The notes beneath the pieces are model-generated. The model searched no databases. It had not been told where the DNA came from and worked only from the letters and a program-made list of their open reading frames with translations. A stretch of DNA of 38,718 bases from assembly GCA_947453715.1 (NCBI GenBank), contig CANGHX010000005.1:1-38718 (forward strand). Reading direction: 5' to 3'. The DNA is from Flavobacteriales bacterium (lineage in GTDB: Bacteria > Bacteroidota > Bacteroidia > Flavobacteriales_D > Crocinitomicaceae). The translations under genes and the position numbers were made by a program. Positions 1-9,568 of the stretch are shown here, one piece after another (the stretch's first letter is position 1; every line of letters starts with the position of its first letter).

Positions 1-590
1 CACGGTGGAACTGTACCGTAAGGCCATTGCGGTCCATATTTTACTGCTTCTAATGGAATTCCTTGATCAGTATACAATGCAAACCAACCTCCAGTTCCAG
101 ATTCACTTGGTAACATGAAATCTTCACCAGGATTTTGACTACAAATATTATTTCCATTAGTAATTAATATATCCACAACTCCTGGAGGAGGAACAGCACC
201 TTTGTTCCCTCTTATGATTGCGAAGCCTCTTGGGGGAATAACAGTTCCAATTGGAATTAAAAATGAAAGAGGATTATTGTTATTTGTTGTACCAATTATG
301 TAATTTGAAATATCACTAGAAGAACACGGACTTGGGTTATAAAGTTCAATCCATTCTCCTTCACATTTGTCAGCAGGAATTGGAAGAGGAGTGTAACCAT
401 AATACCAAGTACCATAAATACTCCCATTTCCATAAGTTGGTTGAGCACAAAATTGATTTATTACAACTTTGTTACCAGTATAATTGCATCCACAACTTGT
501 ATTGTTTACAATATCAGTTGTAAAATTTAAATTTTGACCAAATAGAAATCCATTGATAATAAAAATGGATAAATAAATAAATGCTTTCAT
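1..590 (-). CDS. Secreted lamin-tail-domain-like protein, N-terminal part (runs off window)
   Basis: An open frame of 196 codons starts at the ATG at 590 and runs off the left edge without a stop, so only the N-terminus is visible. It opens with a signal peptide (MKAFIYLSIFIINGFLFGQ). The next ~170 residues closely match the N-terminus of the gene at 705-3131: both have an NNTSC motif, GSIYG, GEWIELYNPSPCSS, ISNYI and PP[RK]GFAI. The EWIELYNPS...DISNYIIG core resembles the lamin tail domain (LTD, PF00932), an Ig-like fold used by extracellular bacterial proteins. By analogy with its paralogue it is probably a T9SS-exported surface protein, but the C-terminus that would show this is outside the window. 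A predicted LytTR-type operator lies 56-91 bp upstream. Function unknown; I infer adhesion or matrix structure. Confidence 0.8.
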   Translation of the reverse strand, partial: MKAFIYLSIFIINGFLFGQNLNFTTDIVNNTSCGCNYTGNKVVINQFCAQPTYGNGSIYGTWYYGYTPLPIPADKCEGEWIELYNPSPCSSSDISNYIIGTTNNNNPLSFLIPIGTVIPPRGFAIIRGNKGAVPPPGVVDILITNGNNICSQNPGEDFMLPSESGTGGWFALYTDQGIPLEAVKYGPQWPYGTVPP

Positions 591-645
591 AACTAATAGT
601 ATTATTTTATTAGTAAAATAAAAGCATAATAAGGTTCATGTTTTG

Positions 646-681
646 TAAAATATACCAAATAGAAAAATTAGTATATGAAAC
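646..681 (-). promoter_or_regulatory. Predicted LytTR-type operator, site A
   Basis: On the minus strand two half-sites, GTTTCATATACT and ATTTGGTATATTTT, have TATA cores (672-675 and 651-654) exactly 21 bp apart. The same geometry and near-identical sequence recur at 4153-4188, 4284-4319 and 9533-9568. Direct repeats about two helical turns apart are the known footprint of dimeric LytTR regulators, and a LytTR regulator is encoded at 7501-8241. The site is 60 bp from the ATG at 590. A weak -7-like element (TATTTTAC) starts 34 bp downstream of the second core. Confidence 0.6.
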
Positions 682-704
682 TACATTTTATTTGATATTT
701 TTAT

Positions 705-3131
705 TTACTTAATCAGATTTACGTGACCATTGTAATGGTATTTATTATCATTATAAGCATCTTTAAAATTTAAATTCCAAGTATATGTTCCATCTTGTGA
801 AATTTGGTTATTAATAGTTCCATCCCATCCAATATGATAATCTTTTGTTTCAAAAATAATTTCTCCCCATCTATTGAATATCGTCAATTCATAACTTTTT
901 TCGTCAAATCCTGAGGTGAAAATTGGCTTGAAGATTTGATTAAATTGATCTCCATCAGGTGTAAAAGTATTAGGAATAAAAAATATCAATGGATTTAATA
1001 TTTCTACAGATAAATTAAATGTATCTGGACAATTAAATTGATTGTTTGCAATTAAAATAATTTCATGAAAACCAGCTTCGGGTTTATATGTATGGCTTGG
1101 ATTTAATAAATTAGAATGTGTGTTATCACCAAAACTCCAATCATAAGAAGTTGCATCTAAAGATTCATTTATAATTTGAAATGAAGGTGCGTCAATTGTA
1201 GCATTTAGTTGAGTGGTATGAAATAATGCTTTGGCCTTAGGATGAGCTAAAATATAATTGCTTTTAACCAATGTATCTATACAACCATTATTTTCTCCAA
1301 TTAATTGAATAGAATAACTTCCTTCATTCATATAAATATGATCAATTGATGTATTTTCATTCGACTCATTACCATCACCAAAATTCCATTTTATTGAAGC
1401 TGTATTTGGTGTGGAATTATTTGTGAATGTAATATTTAATGGTTGACATCCTTCTTCTAAGTTTGATGTGAAATTTAATATTGGTAAGGGTTTTAATAAG
1501 ATTGAGATCGTATCATAACTGATGCAATTATTACTATTGACTGTTAGCACATAATTTCCACTATTTGCATTTGTAGAGTTTTGAATTGTAGGGTTTTGAA
1601 GATTTGATGAGAAATTGTTTGGTCCAGACCAATTGTAACTGATATTTGGTAAATTCGATGATTGTGCTGTAAGTGATAAATTATCGCCAACGCAAATTTC
1701 ACTTGTTGAATTTGCTGATGCTAATGGATATATTGGACTAATTGTATGTATTGAATCACTAACTGTACAACCGTTATTGTCAGTAACAGTCAATAAATAG
1801 TTTTGATTTGCGCCAGTTATTATTGAGTCATTTATACTTCCGTCATTCCAAATAAAAGTAAAAGGTGAATTCCCATTTGAGATAGTAGCTACAATTAATC
1901 CTGTGTTAGTCGAACAATTTACAGGTGTCTCTTGAATTTGTAAATTGATTCCATCTGAAGGTAAAATTTCAATTATAGTATCCTTTTCACAACCATCTTT
2001 TGTAATTGATAGGTGATAATTTCCAGCAGCTAAATTATTAGCAGAATTATTCGAAGATACATTAGGTGTCCAGCTAAATGTGTAATTTCCAAGAGGGGAA
2101 GGTGAAAGTTGAATTTCTCCATTTGGTTGATCACATGAAGTATGACTAATAATAGGATTTAAATTAAAAAGATCTTCATTAATTGTTATTTGAACTGCTT
2201 GGGATGTATTTGTTGCATCAGTTACAATACAAGTATATTGTCCTGCACACAAATTCGAAGTCGTAGATGAATTATTTGTTGGAAATTCATTCCAATGAAA
2301 GCTATAAGGGGCAATTCCTGAATTCATTATAATCGTTACACTACCATTACAACTTGAGGAAGGAGGTGCACAATTCGCAGGGGAATTACACGATCCATAA
2401 CTTAAATCAGTGCTTCCTTCAATTAAATAGTTAGATGTGTTCCAGGTACCACCATCAATAGTTCTATAAAAGGTTTTACCAGTCAACGGATAAGGAACGC
2501 TTAATCCAAAAACAGGGGTTGATGCATTAACTTGATTGAATGAATTTAAAGTACTATTTGGATTTAAACTATTTCCAGGTGGGTTACATGGATTTGTTGA
2601 GCTATAGCCAAAAGCCCATTTAATTGCATCAACAGGTGTTCCCGTGGCATTGTATAAACATAGCCAACTTCCTGAATCTACTAAATAAAATCGCCCATTT
2701 GAAATACAAACTTGATTCAAATTCGAAATAATAATATCTATTGCTGTAGAAGGAGGGATAGGTGCGTTGATACCGCGAACGATTGCAAATCCTTTTGGAG
2801 GTATTATTGTGCCAGTTGGAATTATTATTGAAGCGGGACCTTCAGAGTCAGTGCCTAAAATATAGTTTGAAATATCTATAGAAGAACATGGGCTAGGATT
2901 ATATAATTCAATCCATTCTCCTCCACCAGGATTTGTAGTTGAGTAAAATCCATAAATACTTCCATTATAATTTGTTGGTGAAACATTTATTTGATTAATA
3001 AATACTTTTGGTCCAGAATAATCACAACAACTTGTATTATTTGTAATTTGAAGTGAATAGCTTAAGTTTTGACTATTTAAATTTATTATGAAACATAGGC
3101 AAAGTAAAAATACAATATTGTTTGTTTTCAT
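705..3131 (-). CDS. Secreted multidomain surface protein: LTD-like, SprB-type repeats, PKD, T9SS type B signal
   Basis: 808 residues. A signal peptide (1-20) is followed by a lamin-tail-like domain (about 40-175; GEWIELYNPSPCSS), three or four SprB-type beta repeats (about 255-455; motifs such as PYSFHW, YTFSW, FTFIWNDGS and Y.LTVTD), an Ig-like segment (475-545), and two PKD domains (555-630 with KWNFGDG, 640-710 with YDWSFGD). It ends in a gliding-motility-associated C-terminal domain (715-808; FIPNTFTPDGD, IFNRWGE, GWDGT, DGTYTW), the type B T9SS sorting signal. Such proteins are exported by T9SS and displayed or released at the cell surface as adhesins. The N-terminus is paralogous to the gene at 1-590. 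No operator repeat lies directly upstream. It follows the gene at 3234-4103 after a hairpin, so it may depend on readthrough. Ligand unknown. Confidence 0.9.
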   Translation of the reverse strand: MKTNNIVFLLCLCFIINLNSQNLSYSLQITNNTSCCDYSGPKVFINQINVSPTNYNGSIYGFYSTTNPGGGEWIELYNPSPCSSIDISNYILGTDSEGPASIIIPTGTIIPPKGFAIVRGINAPIPPSTAIDIIISNLNQVCISNGRFYLVDSGSWLCLYNATGTPVDAIKWAFGYSSTNPCNPPGNSLNPNSTLNSFNQVNASTPVFGLSVPYPLTGKTFYRTIDGGTWNTSNYLIEGSTDLSYGSCNSPANCAPPSSSCNGSVTIIMNSGIAPYSFHWNEFPTNNSSTTSNLCAGQYTCIVTDATNTSQAVQITINEDLFNLNPIISHTSCDQPNGEIQLSPSPLGNYTFSWTPNVSSNNSANNLAAGNYHLSITKDGCEKDTIIEILPSDGINLQIQETPVNCSTNTGLIVATISNGNSPFTFIWNDGSINDSIITGANQNYLLTVTDNNGCTVSDSIHTISPIYPLASANSTSEICVGDNLSLTAQSSNLPNISYNWSGPNNFSSNLQNPTIQNSTNANSGNYVLTVNSNNCISYDTISILLKPLPILNFTSNLEEGCQPLNITFTNNSTPNTASIKWNFGDGNESNENTSIDHIYMNEGSYSIQLIGENNGCIDTLVKSNYILAHPKAKALFHTTQLNATIDAPSFQIINESLDATSYDWSFGDNTHSNLLNPSHTYKPEAGFHEIILIANNQFNCPDTFNLSVEILNPLIFFIPNTFTPDGDQFNQIFKPIFTSGFDEKSYELTIFNRWGEIIFETKDYHIGWDGTINNQISQDGTYTWNLNFKDAYNDNKYHYNGHVNLIK

Positions 3132-3180
3132 AATATAGATATTAATTTTTTTTGAGATAAATTGTTTACTTTATTGTTTA

Positions 3181-3217
3181 TTCAGAAAAGAATTAAGGAT
3201 GATAATTCTTTTCTGAA
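3181..3217 (-). terminator. Perfect 15-bp hairpin between two surface-protein genes
   Basis: TTCAGAAAAGAATTA (3181-3195) and its exact reverse complement (3203-3217) flank a 7-nt loop. The hairpin sits just after the stop of the gene at 3234-4103 and 49 bp before the ATG at 3131. It probably terminates, at least partly, the upstream transcript. With so little room for a separate promoter, it may set the ratio of the two proteins. Confidence 0.65.
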
Positions 3218-3233
3218 TATGATTTAGGCTGTT

Positions 3234-4103
3234 TTATTTTTTAATAATTTTTTTGAAAATTAATTTTCCATTCAACATAAATTCAAGGTGATAGATTCCA
3301 GAACTTAAACCGTCTAGATTTCCTTCATTATTTGTTAAAGGAATTGAAATTTTCTTGCCATCTGATGATATTAAAGTTATAGAACTTAAAATCTCTTCAC
3401 TATTTATTTTGAAATAATTCTCGATTGGATTCGGAAATATTTGGATAAACGAATTTGAATTTTCCGTTAATGATGCATTTGAGGAATTAGAGTTATTTGT
3501 TAATGTGAAGTCATCGATCCAAAGAGTCGATCCAATATTTTGCGAAAATTCAGTTGAGGATTGAGCATAAATGAAAATCGAATTTGCATTACCTGGTTGA
3601 ATAGGAGTCATACTAATCACAGTGTTAGTCCAATTTGTTGCAGTTGGAGGAATAAGTACAGAACCGTAAAAAATTAATTTATCATCCTGATAACCTGTGT
3701 TTAATGTGTCTAAAATAGAAACATCAATATAAGCAGAATCTGAACCAATAGAAGTGTATTTATACCAAACAGATAATTCTACATTTTCTGGATGAGTTAC
3801 GGATCCAATAATTTCTTGATGAATATTACCAGCTATTATACTGTTTGGGAAAATAGTTGGATATGCAGTGTGAACAGCCATATCTGTTTTTGTTTCTAAT
3901 TTTACAGATTGATTGCCTCCATGTACAACTTGGTTGTCAGGTGAGTTTTCAAATCCATCCCATCCTAAAGTGAAGTAATTCCCCGGAAATTGACTTGAAT
4001 TATACTCATACATATTTTCTTCAAAATTGCTATTTAATAAAGTTTGGCTAAAGCTAGATTTTGAAGCAATTATTACTGTTGCTGCTAAGATAATTTTTTT
4101 CAT
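3234..4103 (-). CDS. Secreted protein with carbohydrate-binding-like domain and T9SS type A signal
   Basis: 289 residues with a signal peptide (1-19, ending SSFSQ). Residues about 20-200 form a predicted beta-sandwich (FEENMYEYNS, GWDGFEN, GGNQSVKLET, VELSVWYKYT, LWIDDFTLTN). This resembles the jelly-roll carbohydrate-binding modules common in Bacteroidota secreted proteins; the family is inferred from pattern only. Residues 218-289 are a type A T9SS sorting domain (IFPNPIENYFKIN, SSDGKKI, LSSGIYHLEF, terminal KKIIKK). There is no catalytic signature, so it is more likely a binding or structural protein than an enzyme. It diverges from the beta-helix gene at 4370, and each gene has its own predicted LytTR-type operator in the shared 266-bp spacer. 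Confidence 0.85.
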   Translation of the reverse strand: MKKIILAATVIIASKSSFSQTLLNSNFEENMYEYNSSQFPGNYFTLGWDGFENSPDNQVVHGGNQSVKLETKTDMAVHTAYPTIFPNSIIAGNIHQEIIGSVTHPENVELSVWYKYTSIGSDSAYIDVSILDTLNTGYQDDKLIFYGSVLIPPTATNWTNTVISMTPIQPGNANSIFIYAQSSTEFSQNIGSTLWIDDFTLTNNSNSSNASLTENSNSFIQIFPNPIENYFKINSEEILSSITLISSDGKKISIPLTNNEGNLDGLSSGIYHLEFMLNGKLIFKKIIKK

Positions 4104-4152
4104 ACGTTTAAATTTTTTAGTAAAGAAATAATGAAATGAAATAGAATTAAAA

Positions 4153-4188
4153 TAAAATATACCAACATAGAATAATGGTATACAAACT
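4153..4188 (-). promoter_or_regulatory. Predicted LytTR-type operator, site B
   Basis: Minus-strand half-sites CAGTTTGTATACC and TGTTGGTATATTTT have TATA cores at 4179-4182 and 4158-4161, exactly 21 bp apart. The second half-site shares 12 contiguous bases (TTGGTATATTTT) with sites A and C. The core ends 54 bp before the ATG at 4103, and a weak -7-like element starts about 31 bp downstream of it. Confidence 0.6.
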
Positions 4189-4283
4189 GTTAAAAAGAGT
4201 AAGAGAACACTTTAATTGTATTTTAGTGAAAAAATATTCCAGTAAACATTAATTTATTATTATGTAATATTTCTAAAATCGGT

Positions 4284-4319
4284 GTTTCGTATATTCTAAA
4301 TTTACTTTTGTATACTATT
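4284..4319 (+). promoter_or_regulatory. Predicted LytTR-type operator, site D, with downstream -7 element
   Basis: On the plus strand GTTTCGTATATTC and TTTTGTATACTATTC have TATA cores at 4290-4293 and 4311-4314, again 21 bp apart. The first half-site matches site A (GTTTC[AG]TATA). A 7-of-8 match to the -7 box, AATATTTG, is at 4344-4351, 33 bp after the second core. That would put transcription start near 4356, about 14 nt before the ATG at 4370. Repeats at about -45 and -66 suit an activator. Confidence 0.6.
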
Positions 4320-4369
4320 CAAAAATCGAAGTGTTGAAAAATTAATATTTGATTAAAAACTAATTAAAT

Positions 4370-7300
4370 ATGAAATCTCGAAACTTACTATTTACATTTC
4401 TATGCTTATTAAATTTGTCATTTGCTCAAATTTATACTGTTGGCACTGGTCAGACTTTTCCTACTTTATATTCTGCAATAAGTGCTGTCAATAATGGTGT
4501 TATTACTGGTAATATTGAATTGCAGATTGCAGCTGACTGTATAGAGACTAATGCAATTTCGTTGAACCAAACGGGAGTTGCATCAGCAAATTATTCTTCA
4601 CTGATAATTTATCCAACGGGTTCTAATAGGATTATCTCTTGTAATTCAAATTTGTTGTATACGCTCATGAATTTTAATGGAGCTGATAATGTGTTAATTG
4701 ATGGTCGAATTAATAAAACTGGTACTACTATTGGTTTGAGTTTTGAATTGACAACTGTTGGAAATACTACAACAATATTATTTTCAAACGACGCTACAAA
4801 TAACATTGTAAAATATTGTGAAGTAAAAGGGGCTACAAATAGTTTTTCAGGAGTGATTGAATTTGGTGCAGGTTCTACTATTGGAAATGACAATAATATA
4901 ATCGATCATTGCAAAATAACAAAATCAGGAGTGAATATCCCTACATGGTTAGTAATGTCTGATGGTACGGCAGCAAAAACAAATGACAACAATTCAATTA
5001 CATATTGTGAATTATTTGAATTTAAAAGGGATGCAGTATTTTTAAGGTCTAATTCTGGACCATTTTTATTTTCGAACAATCATTTCTATCAACTGACTAC
5101 CTTTACCCCAACAGTATCATTAACAACAGCATTTATAAATATAAATACTGTTGGTAGTCACACAATAATTAATAATTATTTTGGAGGAACTTCTAAATTT
5201 TGTAATGGTAGTCCATTTATAATAAATACAACTTCAAATTCATTTTATGCTGTCAATTTTTCAATACTAGTTTCATCTGGAAATCAAACTATTTCAGGAA
5301 ATTTTTATCAAAATTTAAATGTTACCACCTCTTATTCTGGATCAAAACCACCATTAGGTTTTGTATACTGCGAAAACACGACTGGTACAATAAGTTTTAC
5401 ATTAGGTGGTCTTGGTTTAGGGAATATAATAGGATCTGAAACAGGGGTGAACAATATTTTATTGACTGATAATGGCACGAGTATTTATGGATTTGTTGCA
5501 TTTCAAAAAGCAGGAGGCAGTGGAGCAGTGGATTTTAGTTATAATAAAATCGGTGGTTTAACTTATGATGGAAGTAATGTTAATGGCATTTTAGATTTCG
5601 TTTTTGTAACGGGCTCAGGAAATGTTACTGTTAATAATAATATAATTGGAAACGCAACTTCTAATAATATTCAAGATATTGGCAATAGAACAAACTCAGA
5701 TAATGCATTACTTTTAAAGTCTAGATCAACAGGTGTAGTTACTGTGTCAAATAATTTAATAAATAATTTCACTTTTACATCGACGAGTGCAAGTTTAACT
5801 CAATATTGTTATGGTGTATATATTGTTAATTCATCGAATGTTATTCTTAATAATAATGAAATAACTAAAATTAATTACTGTCGAAGTAATGTTTTTACTG
5901 GTTTTTACATAAGTTCTAATGGTGTAATTACAACTAATAATAATTCAATTTCAACTATTTATTTACCTAATTCGGGTGTTGTTTTTACAGGAATTAATTT
6001 AATTTCATCGAGTAATGATGTTGTTTGTAGTCAAAATTCAGTTGGAAATTCGATGGCTTCAAATATTAATGTTGGAGGAAATGGATATCACAAAGGGATT
6101 TCTGTATCAATTCCAGTTAATAAAACTGCAACATTGAATTTGAATTCGGTGAGAAATATTTTGTTTTCAAATTCTGGGTCAAGTAATCAGTCTGTTGGGA
6201 TATTTGTGAGTGGCAATGGAAATTCAAATGTATCTAATTCTTTAGTTGAAAATTTATCAAGTAATTCAACTTTAACTGGAAATTATTCTATATCAGGTAT
6301 TAGAATAGCAGTAATTGGAACAAATAGTTATGTTCAAAACAATATTATTGATGAGATTTCCAACTATAATTCATTGGGAAATTCTACTTTTGTGACTGGA
6401 ATCTGTAATAATTCTGGAAGCGGCTCAGTTGCTACGAATGGTTATATTAATGCCAACAAAATTTCAAGTTTATCTAATTCAGCAGGAATTTCAGCATCGA
6501 TTTATGGAATTGTAAATAGTTCATTTAGTAGTAATTTACAAGTGTATAATAATATTATTTTAATTGAAAATTCATCGAATACTAATCCTTGCTCGATATA
6601 TGGGATCTATGATTTAACAAATGCATCTACAAAAGTATATCATAATACTATTGTAATTGGAGGGAAATCAATGGCAGGTTCATTAAATAGTAGTGCCTAT
6701 ATGAATCAATTTTCTAATTCTAATCGGATGATTTATAATAATATTTTTCAAAATAAAAGAATTGGTGGTGCTGGTAATCATAGGGCAATTGAAATTGTTA
6801 CGATTACCAATGTGCAAGAAGATTACAACTATCTAGAATCAACAAATTCAGTCGTGAGCTGGGGTGGTATTAGTAAAAGTTTTAATACTTGGGTTTCTAC
6901 AGCCAATCATACAAATGATAATACAGGAAGTATTGTTGTTGATACAAATGGATTTGTACAAACTGGTGAAAATAATACGGTTAAAGATACAGGTTTTGAC
7001 TTTTTTAGCCCTGGAATAGTAATACTTGATTATTTGGGTAATACAAGAGATGATATGCCGTGGAGAGGAGCAATAGAACCTGTAATTCCAATAGTTTTGA
7101 ATAATGAAGAAGTGATTTTTGAAGTTGATAAATTGGAACAACAGAATGAAATCTCTTTTAAAATTGCAAGTGAAACAATGTACAATAAAGCTGATGTTTT
7201 TAGAAGTTTTGATGGAAAAGATTTTGAAAATATAGTTAAGATAAATTCCCCAATTAATAACCAAAAATATCAATTTGTAGATGATCAATTTGAAGATATA

Positions 7301-7498
7301 ACCTATTATAAATTGATTTTGACAAATAATAATGGAGAAGAAGAATTTACAAAAATCTTATCAATTTCAAATATGAATTCTGATTCAAAACTTTTAAAAA
7401 TAATAAATCTTATGGGAGAAGAAGTAAATGAAGATTACCGAGGTGTAGTAATCAAAGTTTATGAAAACGGTAAAACAAATAAAGAGTATAGATTTTAA
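4370..7498 (+). CDS. Large secreted right-handed beta-helix protein
   Basis: 1042 residues with a signal peptide (1-19, ending LSFAQ). Residues about 20-890 are a long array of Asn/Ser/Thr-rich beta-helix coils, recognisable from recurring patterns such as NNNIIGN, NNNEITK, NNSIS, VQNNIID, VYNNIIL and VYHNTIVIGG. It opens with YTVGTGQTFPTLYSAISA, typical of parallel beta-helix surface proteins. No polysaccharide-lyase catalytic signature is visible. The last ~130 residues form a beta-rich C-terminal region ending INLMGEEVNEDYRGVVIKVY..., like the end of a T9SS type A domain but without the usual FPNP...G.Y pattern, so a variant sorting signal is likely. Expression is probably driven from site D. 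The gene converges on the response regulator gene with a 2-bp gap and no terminator. Confidence 0.85.
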   Translation: MKSRNLLFTFLCLLNLSFAQIYTVGTGQTFPTLYSAISAVNNGVITGNIELQIAADCIETNAISLNQTGVASANYSSLIIYPTGSNRIISCNSNLLYTLMNFNGADNVLIDGRINKTGTTIGLSFELTTVGNTTTILFSNDATNNIVKYCEVKGATNSFSGVIEFGAGSTIGNDNNIIDHCKITKSGVNIPTWLVMSDGTAAKTNDNNSITYCELFEFKRDAVFLRSNSGPFLFSNNHFYQLTTFTPTVSLTTAFININTVGSHTIINNYFGGTSKFCNGSPFIINTTSNSFYAVNFSILVSSGNQTISGNFYQNLNVTTSYSGSKPPLGFVYCENTTGTISFTLGGLGLGNIIGSETGVNNILLTDNGTSIYGFVAFQKAGGSGAVDFSYNKIGGLTYDGSNVNGILDFVFVTGSGNVTVNNNIIGNATSNNIQDIGNRTNSDNALLLKSRSTGVVTVSNNLINNFTFTSTSASLTQYCYGVYIVNSSNVILNNNEITKINYCRSNVFTGFYISSNGVITTNNNSISTIYLPNSGVVFTGINLISSSNDVVCSQNSVGNSMASNINVGGNGYHKGISVSIPVNKTATLNLNSVRNILFSNSGSSNQSVGIFVSGNGNSNVSNSLVENLSSNSTLTGNYSISGIRIAVIGTNSYVQNNIIDEISNYNSLGNSTFVTGICNNSGSGSVATNGYINANKISSLSNSAGISASIYGIVNSSFSSNLQVYNNIILIENSSNTNPCSIYGIYDLTNASTKVYHNTIVIGGKSMAGSLNSSAYMNQFSNSNRMIYNNIFQNKRIGGAGNHRAIEIVTITNVQEDYNYLESTNSVVSWGGISKSFNTWVSTANHTNDNTGSIVVDTNGFVQTGENNTVKDTGFDFFSPGIVILDYLGNTRDDMPWRGAIEPVIPIVLNNEEVIFEVDKLEQQNEISFKIASETMYNKADVFRSFDGKDFENIVKINSPINNQKYQFVDDQFEDITYYKLILTNNNGEEEFTKILSISNMNSDSKLLKIINLMGEEVNEDYRGVVIKVYENGKTNKEYRF

Positions 7499-7500
7499 TT

Positions 7501-8241
7501 TTAATCTTCACTATCTTCTTTGAAATATCTTTTTATGATATTTTTTTCAATAAAATTGGTATAAAATTCATCTTTATAAATTCCACTTAGTATTAGTTCT
7601 TCGTTACCAATTTGTATCATTTCTTGACTAACGGAGTCAACAAAGTTGACATTGATGATATATGATTTATTAATTCTAATAAAATTAATTTTAGGAAGTT
7701 GTAAATGGATAGTTTTTAGGTTTACAGCTGTCATAATGTGTTCATTCACAGTGTAAATGATAACGTAGTCTTTTAAACCTTTAATATATTTTACTTCATC
7801 ATATTTAATTTTTATATTTCTCCAATTTGAACGAACATAAAAATAATTATTTGCTTTTTCAACCATTTGATAAGAACATTTTTGTTCTAAATCAAAAATT
7901 TCCTTTGCTCGATTTACAGCTGACAGAAAGCGAGTAAATACAATTGGTTTAACAATGTAATCGATTACACCTAATTCAAAACCTTCAAGCGCATATTGAG
8001 GATAAGCTGTTGCTAAAATTGTTAATGGTTTTTTCTTTAAAGTAGCAAGATATTCTAATCCTGTAATATCGGGCATTTCAATATCAATGAACAACAAGTC
8101 AATTTCATTTGTGTTTAAGAAATTGTTAGCATCGATTACATTACTGAAACTTCCTACTAATTCTAAAAAATCAATCTTTTCAATATTAATTTTCATTCCC
8201 TCTCTTGCAAAAGGCTCATCATCAATAACTATACACCTCAT
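7501..8241 (-). CDS. LytTR-family response regulator
   Basis: 246 residues. A CheY-like receiver domain (1-120) has the acidic cluster D7-D8-E9, phosphoacceptor D53 (FIDIEMPDITG), T78 and K98 (DYIVKP). A LytTR DNA-binding domain (PF04397) occupies about 138-235 (YFYVRSNWRNIKI, VKYIKGLKDYVIIYT, FIRINKSYIIN). Phosphorylation by the kinase encoded 57 bp upstream should promote dimer binding to DNA. Family members bind two short direct repeats about two helical turns apart, which fits the four 21-bp-period repeats in 646-9568. It is the second gene of a kinase-regulator operon, and its 3' end lies 2 bp from the convergent beta-helix gene. Confidence 0.95.
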   Translation of the reverse strand: MRCIVIDDEPFAREGMKINIEKIDFLELVGSFSNVIDANNFLNTNEIDLLFIDIEMPDITGLEYLATLKKKPLTILATAYPQYALEGFELGVIDYIVKPIVFTRFLSAVNRAKEIFDLEQKCSYQMVEKANNYFYVRSNWRNIKIKYDEVKYIKGLKDYVIIYTVNEHIMTAVNLKTIHLQLPKINFIRINKSYIINVNFVDSVSQEMIQIGNEELILSGIYKDEFYTNFIEKNIIKRYFKEDSED

Positions 8242-8298
8242 TTGGAATTTTTATTAATTTGAAGTGAAAAATAGATTAAAAAATGGATAAATAAAATT

Positions 8299-9342
8299 TT
8301 AATTCGTGTTTATTTTCAAAATAGTTGAATATTCAGTACTTTGATCAATAATATCAAGAGAGAAATTGTTTTTATAAACTAATTCTAATCTTTTACGAAC
8401 ATTTTGATTTCCAATTCCTCCAACTTCATTTTTTTGATTGATTTCACGTTTAGAGTTTTTAATTTCAAATAAGATAGAATCATGATTAATAGTTAAATAG
8501 ATATTGATATAATATTCATTGTCCACTTTTCTTGCATGTTTAAATGAATTTTCAATGAATGTTCCTAAAATCAAAGGTTCGATATGTATTGAATTTGATG
8601 AACTATTTTCAATAATTTCAAATGTTAAGCATAAGTCTTGTTTTCTGATTTTTTCAAGATTAATGTAATCATGAATATATTCAATTTCCTTTTTTAAGCT
8701 TACTTTTTCATTGGAACAATCATATAATTGATACTTGAGCATGTTAGATAAGCGGAGAATACTATTTTCAGTTTCTTCATGTTTAATTTGATGCATAATC
8801 ATTATGTTATTCAATGAATTAAATAAAAAATGAGGGTTAATTTGATTTTTTAGAAATTGTAATTCTGTTTGAAACTTTTCAATTAATATTTCTTTAAGTC
8901 GTTCTTTGTTTTTATACCATAATTTAAACAATTTTAATCCTACTGCAGAACCTAGAATAATGCAGTTTTGCACTATAAACATTATAAAATATTTCCAAAA
9001 TCCTTCAGTTTGAAAGTAATCATAATCTTTTTGAAAAATATACCATGTATAAATTGTATAGATGGTTTCTTGTATAAAACAAATTATAAAAAAGATACCA
9101 TATTTATTTTTCAGAAAGTATTTAGGTAAAATAAATTTGATATTTATTGCCGTTAAAAGTATATGAAATGCTATGCAAGAAAATAATTTGACAACGTAAT
9201 AATCTTCTTTGTAATACCCATTCATGAAGGTATTGACGATTTCAGTGAAGTAAATTATGCACCAAAAAACTATGTGTCGTACTAGGGATAGTTTTTTATC
9301 AAAAAAAAATCTATAATTTAAGGTTTCGCGTTTACTACTCAT
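8299..9342 (-). CDS. LytS-type membrane sensor histidine kinase
   Basis: 347 residues. Four membrane segments (about 22-40, 52-70, 82-102, 116-136) leave only short extracellular loops. A cytoplasmic His_kinase domain (PF06580) follows, with phosphoacceptor H171 in QINPHFLFNSLNNI. The HATPase domain has its N box at N265 (LILGTFIENSFKHA) and a glycine-rich lid, GGIGNQN, at 308-314. All key residues are present. There is no dedicated sensor domain, so the signal is probably perceived in the membrane. It pairs with the LytTR regulator downstream. Upstream lie a 30-bp hairpin (9392-9421) and operator site C, which suggests autoregulation. Confidence 0.93.
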   Translation of the reverse strand: MSSKRETLNYRFFFDKKLSLVRHIVFWCIIYFTEIVNTFMNGYYKEDYYVVKLFSCIAFHILLTAINIKFILPKYFLKNKYGIFFIICFIQETIYTIYTWYIFQKDYDYFQTEGFWKYFIMFIVQNCIILGSAVGLKLFKLWYKNKERLKEILIEKFQTELQFLKNQINPHFLFNSLNNIMIMHQIKHEETENSILRLSNMLKYQLYDCSNEKVSLKKEIEYIHDYINLEKIRKQDLCLTFEIIENSSSNSIHIEPLILGTFIENSFKHARKVDNEYYINIYLTINHDSILFEIKNSKREINQKNEVGGIGNQNVRKRLELVYKNNFSLDIIDQSTEYSTILKINTN

Positions 9343-9391
9343 GCTTCATAATTTATTTCATCAATATAAAAAAAATACCTTCAATTAAAAC

Positions 9392-9421
9392 AAAAGAGAG
9401 AAACATTAATTTCTCTCTTTT
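9392..9421 (-). terminator. Perfect 12-bp terminator-like hairpin upstream of the kinase gene
   Basis: AAAAGAGAGAAA (9392-9403) and TTTCTCTCTTTT (9410-9421) pair perfectly around a 6-nt loop. On the minus strand the hairpin is followed by TTTTGTTTTAATT. It lies between operator site C and the kinase ATG at 9342. It could end the transcript of the gene at 9572-10138, end a short RNA started at site C, or act as an attenuator of the kinase-regulator operon. Confidence 0.65.
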
Positions 9422-9496
9422 CTTACCTAAACTACTACTACTAATACTACAATTTATTTATGATTATATTATCATATAACATAAACTATAAACTAC
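9392..9496 (-). ncRNA. Candidate ~100-nt small RNA or attenuated leader from site C
   Basis: Site C has a 7-of-8 -7 element (TAATTTTA, 9508 to 9501 on the minus strand) at the spacing seen at site D, predicting a start near 9496. The strong hairpin at 9392-9421 would end a transcript of about 100 nt. It contains a small TATGAT/ATCATA stem-loop, a run of TAG repeats, and one 11-codon frame (MLYDNIIINKL) that may not be meaningful. No sequence family is recognised; this is inferred from layout only. Confidence 0.25.
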
Positions 9497-9532
9497 AGAA
9501 TAAAATTAGGTTTAAGACATTGTTCCAAAAAT

Positions 9533-9568
9533 GAAAATATACCAAATGGACTATTAAGTATACAACAA
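9533..9568 (-). promoter_or_regulatory. Predicted LytTR-type operator, site C
   Basis: Minus-strand half-sites CTTGTTGTATACTT and ATTTGGTATATTTT have TATA cores at 9559-9562 and 9538-9541, 21 bp apart. The second half-site shares 14 contiguous bases with site A. It begins 4 bp after the stop codon of the gene at 9572-10138 and is 195 bp upstream of the kinase ATG, so it probably drives autoregulation of the sensor operon and/or a short RNA. Confidence 0.55.

Follow-up and report, generated by a model that had tools for sequence, protein, structure and literature searches.

The question raised by the first 10 kb of the DNA analyzed here (38,718 nt, positions 1 to 38,718 of contig CANGHX010000005.1 from the Flavobacteriales bacterium assembly GCA_947453715.1; hereafter, the window) is whether four direct repeats, lying in a secreted-protein gene cluster that also holds a two-component pair, are the binding sites of the LytTR-type response regulator encoded beside them. 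Our analysis suggested that the four repeats are quite probably the operators of that adjacent regulator, in a local activating circuit with positive feedback. A first-pass annotation of the window had proposed operators for the neighboring regulator, autoregulation, and activator-type promoters, and the repeat geometry, the −7 position, and the conservation in a relative were all in agreement with this proposal.

The four 21-bp-period direct repeats were confirmed as genuine; they lie where they were first annotated, are all non-coding, and have cores exactly 21 bp apart. Each is built of two 10-nt half-sites of approximately TTTGTATACT with an 11-bp spacer, and the halves face the same way, two helical turns apart. 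Relative to the pattern TTNGTATAYT-N11-TTKGTATAYT, the sites had 1, 1, 0, and 1 mismatches, and the half-site form originally given (TTkGTATAyT) is matched perfectly by only one of them; the first half of the site at 646 reads CATATAC. The 14-base identity that had also been reported exists (ATTTGGTATATTTT); in map order, it is shared by sites one and four (646 and 9533), not one and three.

Exactly four matches at ≤3 mismatches occurred in the window, against a mean of 0.53 in dinucleotide shuffles, of which 0 of 100 had four. Within the first 10 kb, non-coding DNA examined at spacings of 7–40 contained a single pairing of a 5-mer with a spacing that was seen three times, GTATA at 21 bp; other pairings reached two at most, and those at two were all A/T-only. 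Motif counts covering the whole source assembly (3.3 Mb, 310 contigs) showed that the four sites were the only matches with 0–1 mismatches, all within 9 kb. With ≤3 mismatches allowed, 43 matches were found genome-wide (1 with two mismatches and 38 with three) versus 61 for a backwards control pattern, and GTATA-N16-GTATA was listed at 11 places (3 inside this 9 kb, and two representing one palindrome counted on both strands) versus 17 for its control. The near-perfect form is therefore a local feature, as the loose motif stayed at background while the near-perfect sites were unique. The suggestion of a regulon reaching type IX secretion system (T9SS) cargo genes genome-wide was rejected; outside the 9 kb, the motif was not above controls, and the best match in the genome had 2 mismatches. 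Elsewhere in the source genome, at G000:C4:4328-4358, there is a near-perfect palindromic GTATACTAT...ATAGTATAC repeat.

The shuffle and genome counts are partly circular because the pattern was derived from the sites themselves, and the independent test was provided by a relative. A regulator match at E≤1e-60 was present in 2 of the 240 family genomes searched. The second genome is an uncultured Flavobacteriales bin, in which contig L069 encodes a regulator 70% identical over 241 residues, and the kinase, the regulator, a Por_Secre_tail protein, and an LTD/PKD/SprB/CHU_C protein lie together. A weight matrix made from the window's eight half-sites alone was applied unchanged to L069 (11.4 kb). 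The promoter of the Por_Secre_tail gene ranked first (23.7, 22-bp spacing) and that of the LTD/PKD/CHU_C gene second (17.8, 21-bp spacing), followed by a score of 12.3 at an unrelated place. A score of 23.7 was never attained by 1000 simulated non-coding sequences of the same length; 0.1% attained 17.8, and 5.2% attained 11.5, the score of the L069 kinase promoter. With patterns written for that genome after the sites had been seen, the three L069 sites were its best matches. An inverted-repeat reading of the L069 kinase promoter, made by eye, was dropped in favor of the 22-bp direct repeat, as the matrix had found the latter before the −7 analysis.

A motif common to other LytTR loci was rejected, with a maximum matrix score of 14.1 in 19 loci (268 kb) surrounding other LytTR genes and best scores of 17.9, 16.8, and 15.7 in 79 others (1.33 Mb). 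Further relatives were absent from a viral-contig scan, and the best 80 of 165 genome-contig candidates included one near relative (L089, which is identical to L069), after which identity dropped to 41%. The L069 Por_Secre_tail gene (L069:6401-7284) has an apparent frame change near its start, with the signal peptide in another frame, which seems to be an assembly error or a sign of a decayed gene.

The region downstream of the operators had a common arrangement. Counting from the G of the second core, a TTT triplet occupied positions 39–41 in 4/4 window sites and in 7/7 when the relative was included, and a T was present at position 35 in 6/7. The seven sites had been picked by the operator motif and not by TTT; in a rotation null of the downstream sequences, a 7/7 triplet occurred in 0 of 20,000 trials and 6/7 once. 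The constant −7-like element of the first annotation was found to be fixed in all four sites, at a distance slightly beyond the 31–34 bp given for it. The Bacteroidota sigma-A −7 box has been described as TAnnTTTG at −12 to −5 (PMC9723704); the TTT and the T at 35 agree with a part of this box, and our start predictions assume that position 42 is −5, which places the operator cores at about −46 and −67 and the repeat center at about −55. A −33 TTG was not evident, by eye, in 6/7 sites. With TTT at a fixed distance in all seven, the sites resemble promoters that depend on an activator, here LytTR at about −46/−67.

The circuit that these features suggest would begin with phosphorylation of the regulator by the kinase. 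Two regulator molecules would then occupy the paired half-sites, which face the same way and have cores at about −67 and −46, and bring RNA polymerase to a −7 box of the sigma-A type that has no good −33 element. By this means, three transcription units for secreted surface proteins (operators A, B, and C) could be turned on, while operator D would drive the leader of the regulator's own operon, producing positive feedback. The circuit would be local rather than genome-wide. Binding, activation rather than repression, dependence on phosphorylation, and autoregulation are steps that we infer.

Several observations weigh against these sites being operators of the LytTR regulator. The GTATAC core is itself palindromic, and therefore a dimeric regulator of another family could occupy each core. 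The loose motif is no commoner genome-wide than its control (43 versus 61), and a close regulator was found in only two genomes. On the matrix alone, the L069 kinase promoter is weak, ranking sixth (fifth in a second scan) with a 22-bp spacing, and one of the 79 other LytTR loci scores 17.9, slightly over the 17.8 site of L069, at a place overlapping the position of that locus's regulator gene. The full TAnnTTTG box is present in none of the seven promoters, the nearest being TAATTTTA (operator D) and TATTTTTC (the relative's Por_Secre_tail gene). When scanned with the window's own pattern, the relative gave a further one-mismatch site (G005:C8:16563-16593, L256) beside a gene of the phage-integrase family (Pfam); its −7 position lacks TTT, and its strand offers no obvious target. 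The one-mismatch matches in G006 and G011 and a two-mismatch match at G000:C193 likewise have no TTT at 39–41; in the G006 match, which lies within a reading frame, the TTT is one base later.

The palindromic core would suit binding of the repeats by a regulator encoded elsewhere, with the LytTR gene adjacent only incidentally. This is unlikely, given that the sites accompany the regulator in both of the genomes that carry its gene, that near-perfect sites are restricted to the regulator's neighborhood, and that the half-sites are asymmetric overall, their reverse complements scoring −0.7 to 4.7 (best over shifts of −5 to +5) versus 10.8 to 13.9 forward on a matrix that was built from the forward forms. 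Chance resemblance in AT-rich intergenic DNA would be in keeping with the absence of genome-wide enrichment, both for GTATA-N16-GTATA and for the full motif at 3 mismatches, and with the matches at ≤2 mismatches to the window pattern in 11 of 12 genus genomes (the 11 other genomes having 0 to 6 matches each, three of these matches with one mismatch). It is very improbable against four near-perfect sites in 9 kb, their conservation in the relative, and a −7 distance fixed in 7/7 sites.

Operation by the adjacent LytTR regulator remains our preferred reading of the four sites, and for operator D it raises the further question of what is transcribed. The first annotation placed this site upstream of the two-component pair; it lies ~190 bp before the kinase ATG (~250 bp for the candidate counterpart in the relative), with a terminator-like hairpin between. 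Downstream of the predicted start, which is at 9496 here and ~4185 in L069, both genomes have a conserved stretch, TTAGTnGTAGTAG, a strong terminator-like hairpin, and then the kinase. The hairpin stretches folded far better than shuffles (z of −4.2 and −3.9, with 0 and 2 of 200 shuffles as good). A covariance model detected the element in 76 of 120 family genomes at E≤0.001. In an alignment of 17 sequences, collected with a model that already included the hairpin, 11 of 13 hairpin pairs showed compensatory change. A strong copy (80–87 bits) was present in 9 of 12 genus genomes, and a lepA-like GTPase gene starts within ~0.3 kb of the element in 8 of these 9 loci, the start being unseen in the stretch fetched from G006. 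Seven of the eight lepA-adjacent copies are directed towards lepA and one (G005) away; as orientation relative to lepA is not fixed, an independent RNA gene is favored over a leader. The nine genus copies have an invariant TTTTCATAAGTAGTAGT and, upstream, a sigma-A-like region (promoter recognized by eye), and tandem arrays occur in several genomes, such as five copies in 1.9 kb (G041:C3). A CATAAGTAGTAGT-type core with a covarying terminator hairpin was observed at window positions 9388-9455 (−), L203-L216, and L245-L255.

This RNA family is small-RNA-like and apparently undescribed. Rfam 15 gave zero gathering-level matches over the window and L069; in five loci searched at E≤2, the element was overlapped only by two miRNA models at the L214 hairpin (24.5 and 24.6 bits versus gathering thresholds of 86 and 95). 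In L245-L255, a sigma-54-like −24/−12 pair, TTGG[CT][AG]C-N5-TTG, starts 38–49 nt before the core in 13 of 15 copies. Overall, the pair was found in 13 of the 29 copies checked, and in a fourfold longer upstream stretch in two copies of the 29, each of which belongs to the tandem array L245. Sigma-54-like promoters before copies in the family's other genera recall the Qrr RNAs. Rfp18 of Flavobacterium (PMC9723704) was also considered as a candidate identity for the RNA.

That operator D mainly controls a ~105-nt small RNA ending at the hairpin near 9390, with the kinase and regulator expressed by read-through or from another promoter, comes close to an even chance. The predicted start directly precedes, in both genomes, the conserved element with its TAGTAGTAG-type core and hairpin, and the folding, the compensatory changes, the breadth of the family, its place beside lepA in either orientation, and its tandem copies elsewhere all favor such an RNA. 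The element could instead act as an attenuator in the leader of the kinase operon, and the pair counts lean towards a hairpin because of the way in which the members were collected. Duplex prediction with the cargo mRNAs gave mixed ranks; in the window, the LTD mRNA ranked first of 26 genes, with the Por_Secre_tail gene ninth and the 1042-aa gene sixteenth, and in the relative, the PKD gene ranked second and the Por_Secre_tail gene last of eight. Transcription from operator D may thus yield a small RNA and also read through into the kinase operon. We only tentatively extend this to a LytTR pair controlling both a regulatory RNA and surface proteins, an agr-RNAIII-like circuit in which operator D would promote a member of a widespread, often tandem family with a nearly invariant UAGUAGU-type core, and this extension is somewhat more apt to be wrong than right.

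Table 1. Positions of the putative operators, predicted promoters, and genes in the first 10 kb of the window.
Feature	Position	Strand	Details
Putative operator A	648..680	−	Pair of direct half-sites with a 21-bp period, before LTD-like protein gene
Putative operator B	4155..4187	−	Upstream of Por_Secre_tail gene; counterpart L069:7370-7403
Putative operator C	4285..4317	+	Upstream of 1042-aa protein gene
Putative operator D	9535..9567	−	Upstream of small-RNA-like element and kinase-regulator pair; candidate counterpart L069:4113-4146
Predicted −7 box, promoter A, TTATTTTA	614..621	−	Start predicted ~609, 19 nt before ATG
Predicted −7 box, promoter B, TTTCTTTA	4121..4128	−	Start predicted ~4116, 13 nt before ATG
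Predicted −7 box, promoter C, AATATTTG	4344..4351	+	Start predicted ~4356, 14 nt before ATG
Predicted −7 box, promoter D, TAATTTTA	9501..9508	−	Start predicted ~9496
Small-RNA-like element	9388..9455	−	TTAGTAGTAGTAGTTTAGGTAA core and terminator-like hairpin
LTD-like (lamin-tail-domain) protein, predicted operator A target	3..590	−	LTD 32 bits versus cut-off of 34.3 (just under)
LTD/PKD/SprB protein, type B T9SS sorting domain	705..3131	−	Domain matches
Secreted protein, type A T9SS sorting domain (Por_Secre_tail), predicted operator B target	3234..4103	−	Domain matches
1042-aa protein, predicted operator C target	4370..7498	+	Signal-peptide-like N-terminus; no family match
Response regulator, REC + LytTR	7501..8241	−	PF00072 4.9e-17, PF04397 1.2e-12
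Sensor histidine kinase (PF06580)	8299..9342	−	His_kinase E 3.8e-23; N-terminal half hydrophobic; NPHFLFNSLNN motif

The secreted-protein targets proposed initially were supported, at least two of them being of the type IX kind: T9SS sorting domains exceeded the cut-off in the LTD/PKD/SprB and Por_Secre_tail proteins. The LTD-like protein, whose N-terminus is signal-peptide-like, is truncated by the contig end. The LTD/PKD/SprB gene has no operator of its own, its counterpart in the relative has one, and it is probably the second gene of an operon driven from operator B. Stretches 289-364 and 2851-2926, within the two LTD-type genes, are 80% identical, suggesting duplication of an LTD module. 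The 1042-aa protein had no Pfam or NCBIfam match and no sorting domain match, and its C-terminus looks like a T9SS sorting tail by eye. Also by eye, this protein is asparagine-rich and repetitive, and perhaps a beta-helix surface protein.

In the regulator, both the REC domain and the LytTR DNA-binding domain that follows it exceeded curated cut-offs; the top NCBIfam model match was BtsR, far under its cut-off (111.6 versus 246 bits). The regulator query had 25 matches in the source genome, some perhaps through the receiver domain alone, and LytTR regulators seem to be numerous in this group. The pair had first been annotated as LytS/LytTR; the kinase has the PF06580 catalytic part of LytS-type kinases, and the 5TMR_LYT sensor domain, another feature of such kinases, had no match in it, His_kinase being the sole Pfam family at E≤0.001. 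Three distinct hydrophobic stretches of the kinase passed the threshold (four segments listed, two overlapping), and a fourth was seen by eye.

The arrangement would connect signal sensing by the kinase-regulator pair with the presentation of type IX surface proteins. Our searches of an open-access library brought up no LytTR operator in Bacteroidota, and the window therefore offers a site, a spacing rule, and a promoter geometry that can be tested. The adjacent RNA element suggests that small RNAs of this kind extend across the family, here with a natural regulator. If this is true, one member of the RNA family would be placed under two-component control, in a manner similar to agr-RNAIII, in a phylum for which we found no LytTR operator described.

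Comparison with known systems places the pair near YpdA/YpdB of E. coli, the sister of BtsS/BtsR, which likewise combines a histidine kinase with a REC-LytTR regulator. The E. coli targets are transporters, whereas those proposed here are secreted surface proteins; the half-site sequence also differs, and the kinase here is without a recognized LytS sensor domain. YpdB uses two direct 10-nt repeats with an 11-nt spacer and has a single known target (PMC4847170). That source describes LytTR sites as two direct or inverse repeats of 9–11 nt with spacers of 11–13 nt, in line with the original statement that direct repeats two turns apart are the known LytTR geometry (PMC4847170). The putative operators, paired repeats upstream of a predicted promoter, fit this layout because they consist of 10-nt repeats with spacers of 11 nt in the window and 11–12 nt in the relative. 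The agr system of Staphylococcus aureus, which has RNAIII as its RNA output, shares with this locus the direct repeats (centered here at about −55) and possibly autoregulation and an RNA output as well. Unlike agr, the listed open frames include no peptide-signal genes, the RNA element is unrelated, and the promoter is of the Bacteroidota type. AgrA acts at P2/P3 through direct repeats centered near −60, where promoter spacing is suboptimal (PMC4227749). In Streptococcus mutans, HdrRM and BrsRM use direct repeats with 11–12 bp spacers just upstream of their own promoters for positive feedback (PMC6193735). Those LytTR Regulatory Systems have a membrane inhibitor as partner; in the window, the regulator includes a receiver domain and is partnered by a histidine kinase. 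In geometry, domain content, and local autoregulation as proposed, the locus matches characterized LytTR systems.

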